A stretch of DNA of 50,303 nucleotides from an uncultured Ruminococcus sp. (GTDB lineage: Bacteria; Bacillota; Clostridia; Oscillospirales; Acutalibacteraceae), in contig CADACB010000024.1 in NCBI GenBank assembly GCA_902786345.1, positions 1-50,303 on the forward strand. The letters are read 5' to 3'. Position numbers and translations under genes: made by a program. A model generated the notes under the pieces. It worked only from the letters and a program-made list of their open reading frames with translations, ran no database searches and was not told the DNA's origin. Positions 8,267 through 45,692 of the stretch are shown piece after piece (positions within the stretch are counted from its first letter, which is position 1; the number at the start of each line of letters is the position of its first letter).

Positions 8267-9343
8267 ATGTCGGAAAAAAAATATACAGATCTGAAAAACG
8301 TCAGTGATGTGGTAATAAGCACACGTATAAGATTTGCAAGAAATCTTCGGGAATTTCCGTTTCCTTGCAGACTGAGTGATGAAAAGAAAAGAAAGGTTGC
8401 CAACATTATAAAGGAATCCGTTCTTGACGGACATTCGGCAATTTCTGAAAGATTCAGGTATATTCAAATGTCAGAGCTTACACAGGAAGAGGCAGTTTCA
8501 CTTGTTGAAAGACATCTTGTAAGTCCCGAGTTCATATCTGACAGACAAGGAAGGGGACTGTTGCTTCTTGATGATGAATCTGTAAGTATTATGATAAATG
8601 AAGAAGATCACGTAAGAATTCAGGTGATAAACTCAGGTATGAAGCTTGAAGAGGCATTTGATCTTGCAGATAAGATAGACACTCTTCTTGATGAGCAGCT
8701 TGATTTTGCATTTAATGACAAGCTTGGCTATCTGACACAGTGCCCTACAAATATCGGAACAGGAATGAGGGCATCGCTTATGCTTCATCTTCCTGCATTG
8801 CAGGAAAGCGGAGCTATGGGTAAGATCGGAGCGTCTCTGTCTAAGCTTGGTCTGGTTATAAGAGGCTTATATGGAGAGGGAACAGAACCAAGCGGTGCTA
8901 TATACCAGCTGTCAAATCAGGTTACTCTGGGAATATCTGAAAGAGAAGCAATAAACAATCTTCGTGACATTGCCTTCCAGCTTGTAGTTCAGGAGAGAAA
9001 TTCACGTGAAGCCTTATCAAGAAACATAAATGTTCTTGACGCAATATACCGTTCATACGGAATAATGCTTTATGCAAAGCTTATGAGTAATGATGAGTGT
9101 ATGAAGCTTATTTCAAACGTCAGATTCGGTGTGGAAATGGGGCTGTTCGACAATATAGATTTTGATACGCTGAACAGGCTTATAATAGAAATACAGCCGG
9201 CAACTCTGATGAAGAATATAGGAAAGAAGCTTACTCCGGCAGAACGTGACCGTATACGCGCGGAGCTTGTCAGAACGGCGATAACACAGCAAAAGATTCC
9301 TGTAAGCCACAGACTTGAAAACAGTGAGAACAGTGTAAAATAA
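8267..9343 (+). CDS. mcsB: McsB, protein arginine kinase
   Basis: This 358-residue member of the phosphagen kinase family phosphorylates arginines on proteins to target them for ClpCP. Visible motifs are STRIRFARNL (nucleotide-binding arginines), the active-site cysteine C159 in QCPTNIGTGMRAS, and the 'VIRGLYGEGTEPSGAIYQLSNQ' region. ATG 8267 is chosen because AAAGGAG sits about 7 nt upstream; an in-frame GTG at 8258 overlaps that site. The gene lies 5 nt past the mcsA stop. Confidence 0.94.
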   Translation: MSEKKYTDLKNVSDVVISTRIRFARNLREFPFPCRLSDEKKRKVANIIKESVLDGHSAISERFRYIQMSELTQEEAVSLVERHLVSPEFISDRQGRGLLLLDDESVSIMINEEDHVRIQVINSGMKLEEAFDLADKIDTLLDEQLDFAFNDKLGYLTQCPTNIGTGMRASLMLHLPALQESGAMGKIGASLSKLGLVIRGLYGEGTEPSGAIYQLSNQVTLGISEREAINNLRDIAFQLVVQERNSREALSRNINVLDAIYRSYGIMLYAKLMSNDECMKLISNVRFGVEMGLFDNIDFDTLNRLIIEIQPATLMKNIGKKLTPAERDRIRAELVRTAITQQKIPVSHRLENSENSVK

Positions 9344-9364
9344 TAATGGTGTTTTTTCATCTGT

Positions 9365-9512
9365 CTGTTTGTTTACACAAAACCCTTCCGAAAGCACAAC
9401 GTTATGAGTGCGTGGAAGGGAGAACCGCGATCGACGTATGTTTGTTTTGAATAAACAACATGAGCTTTTGCGAACGCAATCGCGAATACGGGTGCGGCAG
9501 CTTGCCGCGAAC
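9365..9512 (+). repeat. Dispersed hairpin repeat, copy 2 (between mcsB and clpC)
   Basis: Stem P1 is CCCTTCC (9383-9389) with GGAAGGG (9414-9420), and P2 is GCAC (9394-9397) with GTGC (9408-9411). The distal pair is CGCGAT (9426-9431) with ATCGCG (9479-9484), and the tail hairpin is GCGGCA (9494-9499) with TGCCGC (9503-9508). It splits the stress operon and ends about 90 nt before clpC. TTGCCG (9502-9507) and TATGAT (9526-9531) at 18 nt spacing could form a secondary clpC promoter. Confidence 0.78.
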
Positions 9513-9603
9513 TGTTTGAGTAAGATATGATATAAAGAGGAAGATATTTTATATTACAATTTAAAAAAGAAAAAAACTTAAATAGAAACAGGGGGTATAG
9601 ATT

Positions 9604-12060
9604 ATGTATAAATTCAATGGTTTCACAGAAAAGGCAAACAACGCAATCAACCTTGCAATTGAATCCGCACAGGAGTTCGGACACACATATGTAGGAAGTG
9701 AGCATATACTTCTCGGATTGCTGAAAAATAATGACGGAGTTGCATATACAGTTCTTTCACAGTGCGGGGCAGCAGAAGACAAGCTTACTGAGCTTATCGT
9801 TCAGGAAACGGGAACAGGAGATATTACAAGACTTACACCGGATGATTTTACCCCAAGAACCAAAAGAGTTCTTCAGACTGCAATTATGCAGGCTTCCAGA
9901 ATGGGACATAATTATGTAGGTACAGAGCATATTCTTATAGCTCTGATTTCTGATTCAGAAAGCTATGCTGTAAGCTTTCTCGGTAGAATGAACATAAGAG
10001 TATCCGATATAATAAGAATGCTGAACGAATCACTGGGAAGTGAGGGAGAAAGCGAATTTTCCGGAGCGGGGGCTGATTCTCATGGTGGAAGAGCGTCCTC
10101 GGGAAGTACCAAGGTGCTTGATAAGTTCGGCAGAGATCTGACGGATATAGCATCCAAGGGTGAAATTGATCCTGTTATAGGAAGACAGGATGAGATAGAG
10201 AGAGTTATACAGATTCTTTCAAGAAGAACGAAAAATAATCCTTGTCTTATAGGTGAGCCTGGCGTGGGAAAAACAGCAGTTGCAGAAGGACTTGCACTCA
10301 AGATAGTTTCCGGAGATGTTCCTGAGCCTTTGAAAAATAAGAAGATCATATCACTTGACCTTACAAGTATGATAGCAGGTACAAAATACCGCGGTGATTT
10401 TGAGGACAGGATCAGCAATGCAATTGCAGAGGTAAAAAAGGCAGGAAATATAATTCTGTTTATAGACGAGCTGCATACGATAATAGGAGCAGGCTCTGCC
10501 GAAGGCTCTGCTGATACTGCTAATATCCTCAAGCCGTCACTTGCAAGAGGTGACTTTCAGGTTATCGGTGCAACAACTATAAATGAATACCGTAAGTATA
10601 TTGAAAAGGATGCGGCACTTGAAAGACGTTTTCAGCCTGTAATGGTCGGTGAGCCAACAGAAGAAGAGGCTGTGCTGATTCTGAAGGGCTTGCGTGACAG
10701 ATATGAGGCTCATCATAAGGTAAGAATAACGGATGAGGCAATCAATGAAGCTGTAAAGCTCTCGTCGAGATATATTGCCGACAGGTTCCTGCCTGATAAA
10801 GCGATCGACCTTGTTGATGAAGCTGCATCCAGAGTAAGACTCAGAACATATACAGCTCCGGACGATCTTCAGACAATTGAAAATACACTGAAATCTCTTG
10901 AACAGGAAAAAGCTGAGGCTGTGAACACTCAAGATTTTGAGCGTGCAGCTAAGATAAGAGATGAAGAGAAAAAGCTCAGGGAAGAGCTTGACAACAAGAA
11001 AAAAGAATGGCAGGAAAAAAATGAGCATAAAAATGACGAGGTTACAGGTGAGGATATTGCAGAGATAGTTTCAAGTTGGACAGGCGTTCCTGTATCACAG
11101 CTTACACAGGAAGAGAGTGAAAGACTTTTAAAGCTTGAAGAGATCCTCCATAATAGGATTATCGGACAGGATGAAGCTGTATCAGCTGTATCAAAGGCTA
11201 TCCGCAGAGGAAGAGTCGGCTTGAAGGATCCTAATCGTCCTGTGGGTTCGTTTATATTCTTAGGGCCGACAGGAGTCGGAAAAACAGAGCTGTGCAAGGC
11301 TCTTGCACAGGCAATGTTTGGTGATGAAAATGCAATGATACGTTTTGATATGTCTGAATATATGGAAAAACATACCGTATCAAAGCTTATAGGTTCACCT
11401 CCGGGATATGTAGGATATGATGAAGGAGGTCAGCTTACAGAGAGTGTAAGACGTCATCCTTATTCAGTACTCTTGTTTGATGAAATAGAGAAGGCTCATC
11501 CTGATGTATTTAATATGCTGCTTCAAATACTTGATGACGGAAGACTTACTGATTCACAGGGCAGACACGTTAATTTCAGAAATACAGTTATCATTATGAC
11601 ATCAAATGTAGGTGCAAGACTTATTACCGAAAAACAGAGCAATCTCGGATTTTTCGGAGGAGATGAAAAAGAATCTGATGATGATAACAAGATAAAAGAG
11701 GCGGTTCTTTCAGAGCTTAAAAAAGTATTCAAGCCTGAGTTCCTGAACAGAGTGGATGATACTATTGTTTTCAATAAGCTTACTGAAGATGATATTTGTA
11801 AAATTGCGAAAAATCTTCTTTCAAATCTTGAGAAGCGTCTTGAAGACATAGGTATTTCGGCAGAGTTCACAAGTGCTGCTGTAAAGGCGGTTGCCGATGC
11901 CGGATTTGATGAGCTTTATGGTGCAAGACCTTTGAAAAGAGCTATCCAGTCAAAGATAGAAGATGCTGTATCTGAAAAAATGCTTGACGGAACTGTGAAG
12001 TCCGGAGGTAAAATTATATGTGATTATAAAGACGGCAAATTTACCTTTGAAAATAAATAA
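9604..12060 (+). CDS. clpC: ClpC, AAA+ unfoldase of the ClpCP protease
   Basis: The 818-residue Hsp100 protein has two N-terminal Clp repeats (1-145), AAA-1 with Walker A GEPGVGKT (217-224), a middle domain with the UVR-type segment 'AVNTQDFERAAKIRDEEKKL' that marks ClpC rather than ClpA/ClpE, AAA-2 with GPTGVGKT, and a C-terminal sensor-2 'GARPLKRAIQ'. It unfolds arginine-phosphorylated proteins and CtsR for ClpP, which is not encoded here. The start is ATG 9604 with GGGGG about 9 nt upstream. It is last in the CtsR operon and is followed by a strong terminator. Confidence 0.96.
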   Translation: MYKFNGFTEKANNAINLAIESAQEFGHTYVGSEHILLGLLKNNDGVAYTVLSQCGAAEDKLTELIVQETGTGDITRLTPDDFTPRTKRVLQTAIMQASRMGHNYVGTEHILIALISDSESYAVSFLGRMNIRVSDIIRMLNESLGSEGESEFSGAGADSHGGRASSGSTKVLDKFGRDLTDIASKGEIDPVIGRQDEIERVIQILSRRTKNNPCLIGEPGVGKTAVAEGLALKIVSGDVPEPLKNKKIISLDLTSMIAGTKYRGDFEDRISNAIAEVKKAGNIILFIDELHTIIGAGSAEGSADTANILKPSLARGDFQVIGATTINEYRKYIEKDAALERRFQPVMVGEPTEEEAVLILKGLRDRYEAHHKVRITDEAINEAVKLSSRYIADRFLPDKAIDLVDEAASRVRLRTYTAPDDLQTIENTLKSLEQEKAEAVNTQDFERAAKIRDEEKKLREELDNKKKEWQEKNEHKNDEVTGEDIAEIVSSWTGVPVSQLTQEESERLLKLEEILHNRIIGQDEAVSAVSKAIRRGRVGLKDPNRPVGSFIFLGPTGVGKTELCKALAQAMFGDENAMIRFDMSEYMEKHTVSKLIGSPPGYVGYDEGGQLTESVRRHPYSVLLFDEIEKAHPDVFNMLLQILDDGRLTDSQGRHVNFRNTVIIMTSNVGARLITEKQSNLGFFGGDEKESDDDNKIKEAVLSELKKVFKPEFLNRVDDTIVFNKLTEDDICKIAKNLLSNLEKRLEDIGISAEFTSAAVKAVADAGFDELYGARPLKRAIQSKIEDAVSEKMLDGTVKSGGKIICDYKDGKFTFENK

Positions 12061-41318: not shown

Positions 41319-42782
41319 CTAAATTGTTTTCGCTAAAGCCTTTAATAATGCTGCTGTTTCCGGATTTGATAACAGTTTTGTGAGCAAGGCGGCGTTTTCA
41401 TCTGTACTGTTCTCAGCAGGCTTTTCTTTTTCAACTTCGCTCTCTTTTTGAACCTCTGCCATTGGGTCAAGGAGTTCAACCGAAGTTTCAAACTTGGGCA
41501 TTGGAGCAGTTTTACCTTCTTCCGCATTTTTGAGACCTTTAGCGTTGTAGAACTGTTCCTCAAACTTCTGTGCGTTATATCGCCTGTCCTCGTCGATTAT
41601 ATGGCTGTAAACATCGGCAACCATATCCATTCGGGCGTGTCCTGAGTCGCCTTGAACCGATTTCATATCGCCGCCGTTCCATTTCAGCTTGTAGGTTATA
41701 CTTGCGTGACGGAAGCTGTGAAATACCACATCGGGTAAGTCGTTGTCCTGTATCAGCTTTTTCAAAGCACGGTTGATTACCTGACCTTCCATCGGTCTGC
41801 CTGACGAATGGCAGAATACCAAGTCATAATCCAAATACTCATCACCGAAAAGCTCTTTCATTTCGTCAATCTGCTTTTTTCTCTCTAACAGCATTTGAGC
41901 TACGGTTGACGGCAAGAAGATTTTTCTCACACTTGTTTTAGTTTTTGGCGTTTTCAAAACAAGGGAGGTATTTGTATTTGACAGAGTTCTCGGAAAGACA
42001 CGGATAATGTCCTTATTATCAAGCACCTCCATTACATCTCTGTTTACTCGCTGAAGCTCTTTATCTACAAAAATGGAAGCGTTGTTTTCTTTCAGGCTTT
42101 CCTCCGAAATATCAATGCAATCCCAAGTAAGACCGAGCATTTCACCCATACGGAGTGAACAGGCAAAGGATAAATTGATGGCTAATGCGAGAATATCATC
42201 ATCGCACACTTCAAGAGCGTGCATAAGAGTTTCTGCTGTCCATATTTCTCGTTTCTGATGTTCCTCTTTCGGGAGCGTTGCATTGAGAACCGGGTTTCTT
42301 GTCATCAACTCCCATTTTACCGCCTGATTAAAGGCACTCCTTAAAAACTTATGGATTTCTCTTACGGTATGTACGGTCAGATACTCATTTTTAGGCTTTT
42401 TATTCTGTACCACTTTGGTCTTAACTTTCAGAAGGCTTTGATAGAATTTATCCATAAGTCTCGGAGTCAGTTCATCAAGTTTCACATCGCCGATAAGCGG
42501 AATGATGTAATTATACATAAGCCCTTTCTTTGAACGGTAGGTTGACATTGCCCAGTTATTTACTCCGTACACGGAGCAGTATTCTTCAAGCAAATCCGCA
42601 ACTGTCGTAGCATTAGGAATGATGAATGTACCGCTTTGCTGTTCAAACTCAATTTGAGTTTTTCTCTTTTTAGCGTCTGCGTTTGTATCAAAGGTTTCCC
42701 ATTTTTGATGTTGGTTTCCGTCATCGTCTTTGTAGGTATAAACGACGGAATATCGATTCTTTCTCTTTACAATAGAAGCCAT
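41319..42782 (-). CDS. Tyrosine recombinase (element integrase)
   Basis: The 487-residue recombinase has an N-terminal arm-binding domain (MASIVKRKNRYSVVYTYKDDDG), a SAM-like core-binding domain (about 60-165) and a catalytic domain. The catalytic residues are R211 (ACSLRMGEMLG), H355 and R358 (HSFRHASIT), H382 (GHARMD) and nucleophile Y392 (DVYSHI). A C-terminal tail of about 90 residues, rich in E and K, is extra. It integrates and excises the element at the tRNA-Arg site next to it. It is the last gene of the long minus-strand operon. Confidence 0.95.
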   Translation of the reverse strand: MASIVKRKNRYSVVYTYKDDDGNQHQKWETFDTNADAKKRKTQIEFEQQSGTFIIPNATTVADLLEEYCSVYGVNNWAMSTYRSKKGLMYNYIIPLIGDVKLDELTPRLMDKFYQSLLKVKTKVVQNKKPKNEYLTVHTVREIHKFLRSAFNQAVKWELMTRNPVLNATLPKEEHQKREIWTAETLMHALEVCDDDILALAINLSFACSLRMGEMLGLTWDCIDISEESLKENNASIFVDKELQRVNRDVMEVLDNKDIIRVFPRTLSNTNTSLVLKTPKTKTSVRKIFLPSTVAQMLLERKKQIDEMKELFGDEYLDYDLVFCHSSGRPMEGQVINRALKKLIQDNDLPDVVFHSFRHASITYKLKWNGGDMKSVQGDSGHARMDMVADVYSHIIDEDRRYNAQKFEEQFYNAKGLKNAEEGKTAPMPKFETSVELLDPMAEVQKESEVEKEKPAENSTDENAALLTKLLSNPETAALLKALAKTI

Positions 42783-44050: not shown

Positions 44051-44297
44051 GACAACCGGAGCTTTCGCTGTCCATATTATCAAGCCATCGGTCAAAGCTC
44101 TTCTTGGAAATTCTGTAATGTCCGCCGACCTTTACAAAATGGAAAACGCCTGAGTTGACGAGAGCATAAGCAGTGTTCTTTCCAATGCTGAGAATATCCA
44201 TTATTTCTTCTACCGTATAAACTCTTTTCTCAAAGCCGGAACTATCATCAACAGCGTTGGGTAGTTTGTTCATTGCTTCAATCTTATCTTCAAACAT
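44037..44297 (-). CDS. Excisionase-type HTH protein (single module)
   Basis: The 86-residue protein MFEDKIEAMNKLPNAV... has one HTH_17 module (RVYTVEEIMDILSIGKNTAYALVNSGVFHFVKVGGHYRISKKSFDRWLDN). ATG 44297 with GGGAGG upstream is chosen; it overlaps the stop of the PemK-like gene by 8 nt. Its last codons form one arm of an inverted repeat. Confidence 0.85.
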   Translation of the reverse strand: MFEDKIEAMNKLPNAVDDSSGFEKRVYTVEEIMDILSIGKNTAYALVNSGVFHFVKVGGHYRISKKSFDRWLDNMDSESSGCQLCD

Positions 44298-44868
44298 TGT
44301 CAACACCTCCCTTAGCGTGATGATGGTTCTTTTTGAAAATCATATAGTCATAGCCGTATCCTACCTGACATTTATCGCACATCTCTTTATCTGCCTGAAA
44401 GGGGTCAAGTCTTTTTACAATGTTTTCAGGGATAGACTGAAACTCGCTTCTGCAACGAGGGCAAAGACTTAGTACAATGCCTTTACGCTCTGTCTTGGGT
44501 TTAACGGGAATACCGACTGCAAATTTCAATCCTCGCTTGATTTCGCTGATTTTATCTGCGTCGGTAATTCTTCCGACAAAATTATCAAGCTCTGTGGCTT
44601 TATCCACGGTGCGTAGCTGCTCAAGCATTACCATCGACGGCTCTTTTAAGCCACAATCCGTGTTTAGCTCAATATGAGTATTCATTGCCGTTTTCTTTTT
44701 AACAGCCGTTATAGCGGCTACAACGACCGTAGGACTGCTTTCATTTAAGCGATTTGTCTGAACCACAAGAACCGGTCTCATTCCCGATTGCACACTACCG
44801 TTTGTAACCCCCAAGTCGCAGTAATAAATATCGCCCCATCTGACATTCTTAAATTCTTTTTCTTTCAT
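44290..44868 (-). CDS. PemK/MazF-type protein with C-terminal zinc-ribbon extension
   Basis: The 192-residue protein begins MKEKEFKNVRWGDIYYCDLG. Residues 8-120 match MazF/PemK endoribonuclease toxins: the GDIYYCDLG start, GMRPVLVVQTN, SPTVVVAAIT, and 'SMVMLEQLRTVDK'. A tail of about 70 residues adds CPRC and CDKC, a likely zinc ribbon, and ends GYDYMIFKK. No antitoxin-like gene sits upstream. It may therefore be a regulatory RNA-cutting factor of the element and not a classic toxin; that is inference. ATG 44868 with GAGG upstream is preferred over an upstream in-frame start. Confidence 0.82.
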   Translation of the reverse strand: MKEKEFKNVRWGDIYYCDLGVTNGSVQSGMRPVLVVQTNRLNESSPTVVVAAITAVKKKTAMNTHIELNTDCGLKEPSMVMLEQLRTVDKATELDNFVGRITDADKISEIKRGLKFAVGIPVKPKTERKGIVLSLCPRCRSEFQSIPENIVKRLDPFQADKEMCDKCQVGYGYDYMIFKKNHHHAKGGVDNV

Positions 44869-44968
44869 ATGTAAATCCTCGCTTTCGATTATTCTGAGGT
44901 AATTCATATCCGGATTAGAATTAACCCCTTCACTTGTTTGAAATGGGAGAGCGTTTTTGGGGGGTGTT

Positions 44969-45508: not shown

Positions 45509-45511
45509 TGT

Positions 45512-45571
45512 CGTAATCTCCTTAAATTTGAATTTTTGAATTTGGTTGAAATCAAAAATTCGGAGATTACG
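45512..45571 (-). promoter_or_regulatory. Shine-Dalgarno-sequestering hairpin of the sigma-like gene
   Basis: On the minus strand CGTAATCTCC (45571-45562) and GAATTTTTGA (45561-45552) pair with TCAAAAATTC (45539-45530) and GGAGATTACG (45521-45512). This gives up to 20 pairs with one 8-nt bulge (45529-45522). The last arm holds the GGAG of the sigma gene ribosome binding site. The stop codon of the leader peptide lies inside the first arm. Confidence 0.8.
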
Positions 45572-45608
45572 GATACTTGGCGATATACGCCAGCCACTTA
45601 TATGTCAC
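45567..45608 (-). CDS. Leader peptide MTYKWLAYIAKYP
   Basis: A 13-codon frame starts at GTG 45608 and stops at TAA 45569-45567. AAAGGAG (45622-45616) lies 7 nt before the start. The ribosome terminating here would cover the anti-Shine-Dalgarno arm (45571-45562) and free the ribosome binding site of the sigma-like gene. The mechanism would be like that of erm leader peptides. The peptide is too short for homology, so position is the main evidence. Confidence 0.6.
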   Translation of the reverse strand: MTYKWLAYIAKYP

Positions 45609-45614
45609 GGTCTT

Positions 45615-45629
45615 GCTCCTTTCGGGAGC
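45615..45629 (-). promoter_or_regulatory. Small hairpin holding the leader-peptide Shine-Dalgarno
   Basis: On the minus strand GCTCC (45629-45625) pairs with GGAGC (45619-45615) around CGAAA. The AAAGGAG ribosome binding site of the leader peptide is partly inside the stem. Confidence 0.55.
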
Positions 45630-45632
45630 GAC

Positions 45633-45692
45633 AAAAAAGCCGGACACCAAGAACATTAGGATATTTCTATCCCTTAATTCTCAGCGTCCGGC
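45633..45692 (-). terminator. Intrinsic terminator / attenuator upstream of the sigma-like gene
   Basis: On the minus strand GCCGGAC (45692-45686) pairs with GTCCGGC (45645-45639) and is followed by TTTTTT (45638-45633). Inside, GGATA/TATCC form a second stem with a GAAA loop. It lies between the Com-like gene and the leader peptide, so part of the operon transcripts should stop here. Confidence 0.75.

Follow-up and report, generated by a model that had tools for sequence, protein, structure and literature searches.

Leader-peptide attenuators are known mainly from resistance genes and amino-acid genes. In the Erm and Cat leaders, drug-induced stalling on the leader peptide controls the downstream resistance genes, and a 2005 study reportedly placed the regulators of a tetracycline-induced conjugative element of Bacteroides under leader-peptide translational attenuation. 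According to the accessible text of the cited papers, the MsrDL leader stalls at its UAA stop codon with a macrolide and acts through a terminator (PMC10314930), and in the termination arrest of CliM from C. difficile the residue before the P-site residue hinders the release factor (PMC13183943). The available sections on TnaC report that the R23F and R23H variants, ending in Phe-Pro-stop and His-Pro-stop, increase basal expression of the reporter by more than 20-fold and stall at lower L-Trp concentrations, with the Phe of R23F clashing with the catalytic loop of the release factor (PMC8429421). As far as the accessible portions of the papers go, Streptomyces lividans has RAPP/RGPP proteins encoded ahead of ECF sigma-factor genes, RGPP/RAPP uORFs are reported absent in many Gram-positive groups including Bacillota (PMC12992588), and termination and antitermination control has been published for Tn916 (PMC11658703).

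Here, we describe a compact attenuator that appears to control a sigma-like regulator that heads the recombination genes in conjugative elements of several Clostridia, and that would offer a concrete switch for the timing of element excision. A literature search covering titles and abstract openings, with most subscription papers outside it, gave no earlier account of this leader from mobile elements.

Architecture of the leader and its hairpin

The window, that is, the whole stretch of 50,303 nucleotides analysed here, carries the features listed in Table 1. The preliminary description of this DNA had pointed to a 13-codon frame running from GTG to TAA with its own AAAGGAG, and to a leader stop codon lying in a strand exactly complementary to the Shine-Dalgarno (SD) arm of the sigma-like gene, with a second 10-bp arm extending the stem to 20 pairs. 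The frame is borne out by the window sequence, and so is the stem: CGTAATCTCC and GGAGATTACG are exact complements over 10 bases with the leader stop inside CGTAATCTCC, and the two 10-pair helices give a 20-pair stem split by an 8-nt bulge on the 3' side. Folding of the 131-nt segment gives a minimum free energy of -32.4 kcal/mol, compared to a shuffle mean of -18.0 (z -4.66; 0 of 200 shuffles as low). Because a U-run is absent 3' of the stem, it does not look terminator-like.

Table 1. Positions of the leader, its hairpins and the neighbouring genes in the window
Feature	Position	Strand	Remarks
Zinc-ribbon ORF, 65 aa	45950-45753	minus	Just upstream of the device; weak sub-threshold zinc-ribbon matches
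Terminator-like hairpin	45692-45633	minus	GCCGGAC..GTCCGGC-TTTTTT (T6 tail); between zinc-ribbon ORF and leader
5-pair hairpin	45629-45615	minus	GCTCC-CGAAA-GGAGC, enclosing GGAG of the leader SD; sequence and folding
Leader SD	45622-45616	minus	AAAGGAG, 7 nt 5' of GTG
Leader ORF, 13 sense codons	45608-45567	minus	MTYKWLAYIAKYP-stop; GTG 45608-45606, stop TAA 45569-45567
Leader Trp codon	45596-45594	minus	
Leader Tyr codon	45575-45573	minus	
Leader Pro codon	45572-45570	minus	Followed by the stop, 45569-45567
Anti-SD arm	45571-45562	minus	CGTAATCTCC; last two Pro-codon bases, stop codon and TCTCC
Inner 10-pair stem with 12-nt loop	45561-45530	minus	GAATTTTTGA (45561-45552) pairs with TCAAAAATTC (45539-45530)
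SD arm of the sigma-like gene	45521-45512	minus	GGAGATTACG; ends 3 nt 5' of ATG (45508)
Sigma-70 region-4-like regulator, 179 aa	45508-44969	minus	Regulated gene; PF04545 E 0.0026, NF005248 E 3.2e-9, TIGR02937 E 4e-7
PemK/MazF-like gene	44290-44907	minus	Next downstream; PF02452 E 3.5e-23
Tyrosine integrase of the element	41319-42782	minus	PF00589 E 5.7e-15; site-specific integrase in the annotated copy

As in translational attenuators, the window leader has an SD of its own (AAAGGAG), and the target SD is paired to a strand that a leader ribosome could cover, as found by folding and by the arm comparison below. Among 50 scanned relatives, 40 have a start codon with an SD-like match. An Rfam search of the window region gave no match at the gathering score and one sub-threshold microRNA match over the stem (E 0.32). 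In eight relatives it returned no family matching the leader/SD hairpin; the pemK RNA (RF02913), a different element, lies further downstream in six of them. A promoter scan near the leader gave 2 weak matches against 1.4 expected.

Relatives of the device

Searching 200 genomes of the family by blastn with the 241-bp region gave matches in 16, of which two (L035, L036) contain only SD look-alikes and one (G059, with L034 and L039) a different leader. We built a covariance model, R1, from 16 hairpins plus the sigma ATG, excluding the leader codons 5' of the Pro codon. At E<=0.01 it matched 25 of the 394 genomes in the order sample, 15 of 391 in the class sample and 2 of 398 in the phylum sample; these samples overlap and include the own genome, and stricter filters applied in the large runs. 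Both phylum-sample matches come from the own order, one of them being the own genome itself. In this search, the device is found ahead of strongly diverged sigma-like genes in other Clostridia. R1 also weakly matches the opposite strand of many loci, since the stem is nearly palindromic. Among the fetched loci (one order-sample match, G523, lies outside them), L079 and L080 have no leader, that of L061 is degenerate and the rest end in [YFH]P-stop. A peptide-plus-arm pattern matched 11 of 245 order genomes, the own one included, and a reversed-pattern control gave 0 among the matches listed. Distant blastn matches comprise three phage-collection records, which are unverified faecal scaffolds, and two plasmid-collection records. 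In viral contigs, the peptide-plus-arm pattern matches two stretches, and one sigma query of the second leader class described below found no relative.

Conservation of the leader peptide

The peptide counts for leaders of the window type (class I) cover 60 loci with 50 distinct 30-nt tails, in which position -1 is the residue before Pro. They omit L079 and L080 (weak model matches without leader), the truncated L006, and L034 and L039, which lack a class I frame and belong to class II; ten near-identical window-type loci (L002, L003, L008, L009, L012, L014-L018) never entered, and L031, L061 and L081 were retained as exceptions. Pro is the last residue in all 50 tails and is followed by a stop in all 50 (TAA 32, TGA 17, TAG 1), counts to which the modelled arm itself contributes. 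The model does not cover Trp or the aromatic residue: Trp occupies position -8, nine codons before the stop, in 47 of 50 tails, and position -1 is Tyr in 46, Phe in two, His in one and Ala in one, giving Tyr/Phe/His in 49 of 50. Ala is found at -3 in 41 tails and Ile at -4 in 37, and position -2 is taken by Lys, Glu, Arg, Ala and one Gly. The exceptions are L031, without Trp at -8, and L061 (ending SPRAP-stop) and L081 (ending NKFP-stop), with Trp at -6. Four leaders recovered by protein similarity, and thus independent of the hairpin model, read WQQSIAKYP-stop, WQPSIAAYP-stop, WRCDVAKYP-stop and WFWYYARYP-stop (L106, L120, L124, L125).

Codon use varies beneath this pattern, with all four Ala codons at -3, both Tyr codons at -1, both Cys codons at -6, and Pro encoded by CCG in 46 tails, CCC in two and CCA in two. 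Across 34 tails more than 3 nt apart, the synonymous share of codon differences is 0.312 in the leader frame, compared to 0.150 and 0.129 for the two alternative frames. With a different order of collapsing, 35 tails remain, 33 with Trp and 34 with Y/F/H. The TAG stop is rare (1 of 50, against 13% of 153 background ORFs; P 0.008), which the stem could explain as well.

Pairing and covariation of the arms

In the seed alignment, 96.5% of the cells pair and 2 of 20 pairs are changed on both sides, a number reached by 40 of 500 shuffles. The wider arm comparison covers 16 arm-pair types and 160 cells (43 loci in four types and 12 single loci), leaving out L065, L076, L078 and L081, whose register is shifted, and L049, which has no start codon. 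Paired cells make up 91.9% of the 160, compared to 86.4 in shuffles, and in eight cells both partners have changed, where shuffles give 2.2 and none of 500 comes as high. These double changes are confined to three of ten pairs, and 52 of 500 shuffles reach three, so that the pair count is not unusual. At the stop codon, a change from TAA to TGA is compensated by a T-to-C change of the SD arm (seven loci of one type, L023, L059), other TGA leaders retaining a G-U pair; at the Pro codon, CCG to CCC is compensated by C to G in the partner (L060, L062). A third position is doubly changed in L059, L062 and L077. The outermost pair is not conserved, being unpaired in 9 of the 16 types, G-U pairs occur at one position in 4 of 16, and bulge and loop lengths are variable.

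The regulated gene and its mobile element

The matches of the window sigma-like protein to PF04545, NF005248 and TIGR02937 all fall below the curated cut-offs, and 'sigma-like' therefore denotes a family resemblance and a predicted function. Among 50 downstream proteins, including those of L034 and L039 behind class II leaders, identity to the first protein ranges from 11 to 60%, and TIGR02937 is found at E<=0.01 in 41 and Pfam Sigma70_r4_2 at E<=0.05 in 33. Since these proteins are diverged yet sigma-like, the RNA-peptide device is tied to one kind of gene and not to one close lineage. Some carriers look degraded: the sigma-like frame is short in L030 and L031, and the ATG is absent in L049. 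A ribosome-drug resistance gene, by which erm-type attenuators are classed, was looked for directly downstream, where the gene is sigma-like.

Downstream, the order is sigma-like gene, PemK/MazF-like gene, small ORFs and tyrosine integrase. A 121-bp piece of the device sequence is 100% identical in a Monoglobus pectinilyticus record, annotated with a sigma-70-family gene, a PemK/MazF toxin, four helix-turn-helix genes and an integrase; the earlier placement of the device ahead of an excision and integration module holds for the PemK-like and integrase genes, with the four helix-turn-helix ORFs between them in this annotated copy. In the Monoglobus copy, a VirB4-like conjugal ATPase is encoded upstream, as are predicted tet(O/32/O) and tet(40) genes, the latter two at 8492-11679 of that record (L091). 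Contigs titled Clostridiales bacterium VE202-01 and Acetivibrio sp. MSJd-27 share a 5,009-bp segment surrounding the device at 99.98% identity, and Lacrimispora amygdalina and Suipraeoptans intestinalis share it at 97.2-97.7%, a near-identity that suggests recent movement of the element.

Compared to L008-L019, the window is about 95-98% identical over the upstream DNA, the leader and the sigma-like gene as far as its initial 212 bp, and the similarity stops inside that gene (window 45297). Its region-4 end and the module that follows look exchanged.

The region upstream of the leader

The interval assigned to the device in the preliminary description, 45509..45692, also includes the T6 hairpin, which that description does not mention. 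The 54 nt before its T-run fold at -33.8 kcal/mol (row L041), and the leader is probably transcribed by read-through of this hairpin. The promoter scan lists no terminator here, probably because the hairpin has internal loops. In a loose scan made without a control, one or more hairpins followed by a T-run lie upstream of the leader in 48 of 50 relatives, and in 23 of 50 (again by loose scan) the T-run ends 4 nt or less from the leader start.

A motif like CGAGCAAGCGGAG..CTACCAAGCRCCGTAYGAAG precedes the first upstream hairpin in 23 of 63 loci, by a loose pattern with which at least the L056 match looks false. In L044, L045, L053, L024, L059, L073, L078, L089 and others, CGAGCAAGCGGAG, a hairpin and CTACCAAGCRCCGTAYGAAG are followed by a terminator-like hairpin. 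The last strand of the motif has two alternative partners, one within the terminator-like hairpin and one beyond it. Both pairings are double-changed in 15 aligned sequences, in 12 and 14 cells (each with 0 of 500 shuffles as high), a count that leans towards pairing because the sequences were picked for a third strand visible by eye; the number of doubly changed pair types among them is not unusual. Rfam gave no match over the motif in seven relatives with the upstream motif or its type, and the window's own upstream region has no match to it. By analogy with the termination/antitermination control of Tn916, layered upstream control would be plausible here.

A second leader at sister sigma-like genes

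Gathering sigma-like genes by protein similarity, without the hairpin model, gave 40 loci besides the own one (L096, left out), of which 38 were assessable (L104 and L114 were not). Six have a W..YP-stop leader (L097, L098, L106, L120, L124, L125; the hairpin searches had already yielded L097 and L098), R-[S/A/G]-P-P is present in 22, and ten have neither. The second class (class II) was called among L100-L136 by R-[S/A/G]-P-P in a frame up to 110 nt upstream; L132, with K-S-P-P, was counted as neither class. Some loci are the same places as above (L122 is L034, the own locus of a protein query; L136 is L039, L097 is L051 and L098 is L026), and L101/L109 and L108/L111 are near-copies within the set. 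Dinucleotide shuffles of the same regions give on average 0.27 class II leaders (maximum 2) and 0.01 class I leaders (maximum 1). Among loci with CCNCCN more than 35 nt upstream, Arg-[SAG] codons stand right before it in 22 of 25. Shuffling the 36 nt before CCNCCN lowers this to 0.6 (maximum 3), against a background of 57 of 2183. In L110 and L115, which have neither leader, a hairpin with a T-run lies directly before the SD of the sigma-like gene.

The class II Pro codons lie in the SD-pairing strand or a few nucleotides before it, in folds judged by eye and unscored. The anti-SD strand could explain the Pro-Pro pair alone, but not the preceding Arg-x. Since the Ser codons (TCC, TCA, TCT, TCG, AGC, AGT) and Arg codons (CGT, CGC, CGA, AGA, AGG) vary, the peptide seems to be what is kept. 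Many class II starts are unsettled, as 15 of 22 rows (L132 in, L130 out) are without a start codon with a clear SD, while six have such a start within 15 codons and one has it far upstream; start positions for L121 and L130 were assigned by hand, and that of L115 is probably wrong. Leaders this short may have escaped the gene prediction behind the reported absence of RGPP/RAPP uORFs from Bacillota. Because sister sigma-like genes carry either leader, two unrelated stall motifs seem to serve the same switch, at the same place and in the same kind of RNA, with a putative stall register common to both classes, Pro in the P site.

A putative arrest-driven switch and its alternatives

Both the peptide and the stem are kept across diverged loci, and the SD of the sigma-like gene is locked in the long stem. 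We modelled a leader ribosome by barring a footprint of -14 to +15 around the P-site codon from pairing. When the ribosome occupies the start, Trp, Tyr, Ile or Ala codons, GGAG stays paired; it loosens only with the last three codons (Lys, Tyr, Pro) in the P site. The predicted freedom is partial, 0.32-0.75 with Pro in the P site versus 0.42-0.95 one or two codons earlier, and folding alone thus does not single out the stop. As the SD opens only near the end of the peptide in this model, a pause there is what would open the gene. Conservation, covariation and footprint folding together support the earlier proposal that a ribosome on the leader would hide the anti-SD strand and free the sigma start; the arm covariation and peptide conservation in relatives that had been suggested as its check were both found.

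These comparisons point to a translational attenuator driven by an arrest peptide and gating the sigma-like gene, which we consider probable; a TnaC-like pause or arrest at Pro-stop within an SD-sequestering attenuator is the reading that fits best. The leader ribosome would arrest with Pro in the P site, its footprint would cover the anti-SD arm and open the hairpin, and a second ribosome would then initiate the sigma-like gene, whose product would activate the PemK/helix-turn-helix/integrase module. Without leader translation, the sigma-like gene would remain shut. The arrest could be constitutive, so that leader translation acts as a licence, or dependent on a ligand or stress, and excision may thereby be tied to stress. 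Against this reading stand the ten of 38 protein-found sigma-like genes with neither leader.

Simple translational coupling, in which any ribosome at the leader end briefly melts the stem and the peptide sequence is irrelevant, would account for the stop codon lying within the stem in 50 of 50 class I tails and for the SD opening predicted while Lys or Tyr is still in the P site, and Pro-stop is generally slow to terminate. It would leave unexplained why Trp, the aromatic residue at -1, Ala at -3 and Ile at -4 are kept outside the stem in diverged loci through synonymous changes, and why sister loci have a known arrest motif at the same place, and we regard it as unlikely. The stem's near-palindromic sequence would also suit a DNA operator or a transcription attenuator with an incidental leader. 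However, the G-U pairs preserve RNA and not DNA pairing, and the variable bulge and loop lengths, the missing U-run after the window stem and the synonymous evolution of the leader make such a role most improbable.

The preliminary description had likened the device to erm-type attenuators and linked it to antibiotic stress. In an erm-type device, a drug-bound ribosome would stall on the leader and induce the sigma gene. This part is not supported: the W-x6-[Y/F/H]-P-stop tail resembles a termination-arrest signal and is unlike macrolide-arrest motifs, and one hairpin was found, without the alternative segments of erm leaders. The SD-sequestering logic is shared, an element copy has tet(O/32/O) and tet(40), and MsrDL, in the accessible part of its description, stalls at UAA with a macrolide (PMC10314930); the controlled gene is nevertheless not a resistance gene, and with a single hairpin this explanation appears very unlikely.

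The arrest-driven attenuator would bring a new stall signature, W-x6-[YFH]-P-stop. A bolder generalization is that gating of a sigma-like excision activator by an arrest peptide is a general rule for Clostridial conjugative elements. The arrest peptide would use one of two unrelated stall signals, W-x6-YP-stop or R-[SAG]-PP, each with its codons in or beside the anti-SD strand, and leaders with the former would respond to a small molecule bound in the exit tunnel, for instance free tryptophan or some other metabolite. Taken as a whole, this is rather doubtful; if true, small-molecule sensing would make element excision follow host metabolism.

Comparison with known systems

With Erm/Cat and, as far as its accessible description goes, MsrDL, the device shares the proposed control of a downstream gene by leader-peptide stalling, MsrDL also arresting at the stop; those leaders are drug-induced and serve resistance genes, whereas a sigma-like gene follows here. 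The Bacteroides element of the 2005 study is reportedly similar in having attenuated regulators on a conjugative element, and differs in leader and genes. CliM resembles the proposed mechanism as a Clostridial termination arrest and differs, in the sections available, in monitoring membrane insertion, in its length of at least 76 residues and in its place upstream of yidC. The likeness to RAPP-like peptides, judged from the accessible text of two reports, concerns the sister leaders, which carry RAPP, RGPP or RSPP (PMC10951233, PMC12992588); R-A/G/S-P-P is absent from the window leader and present in 22 of the 38 sister loci. The S. lividans proteins are described there as predicted four-transmembrane proteins, in contrast to the 10-25-codon leaders here.

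In its peptide, the device resembles TnaC of the E. coli tna operon, for which the available text describes a short leader whose Trp is essential and whose final residue is Pro (PMC8429421). Phe or His before this Pro strengthens the TnaC arrest, and window-type leaders have Tyr, Phe or His there. According to the same sections, TnaC acts on Rho-dependent transcription and targets tryptophanase, whereas here the SD is masked and the target is an element regulator; TnaC also has Asp16, and a conserved Asp is absent from the tails here. Trp lies 12 residues before Pro in TnaC compared to 8 here, and because of this difference in spacing, the relation to TnaC is one of analogy rather than membership.
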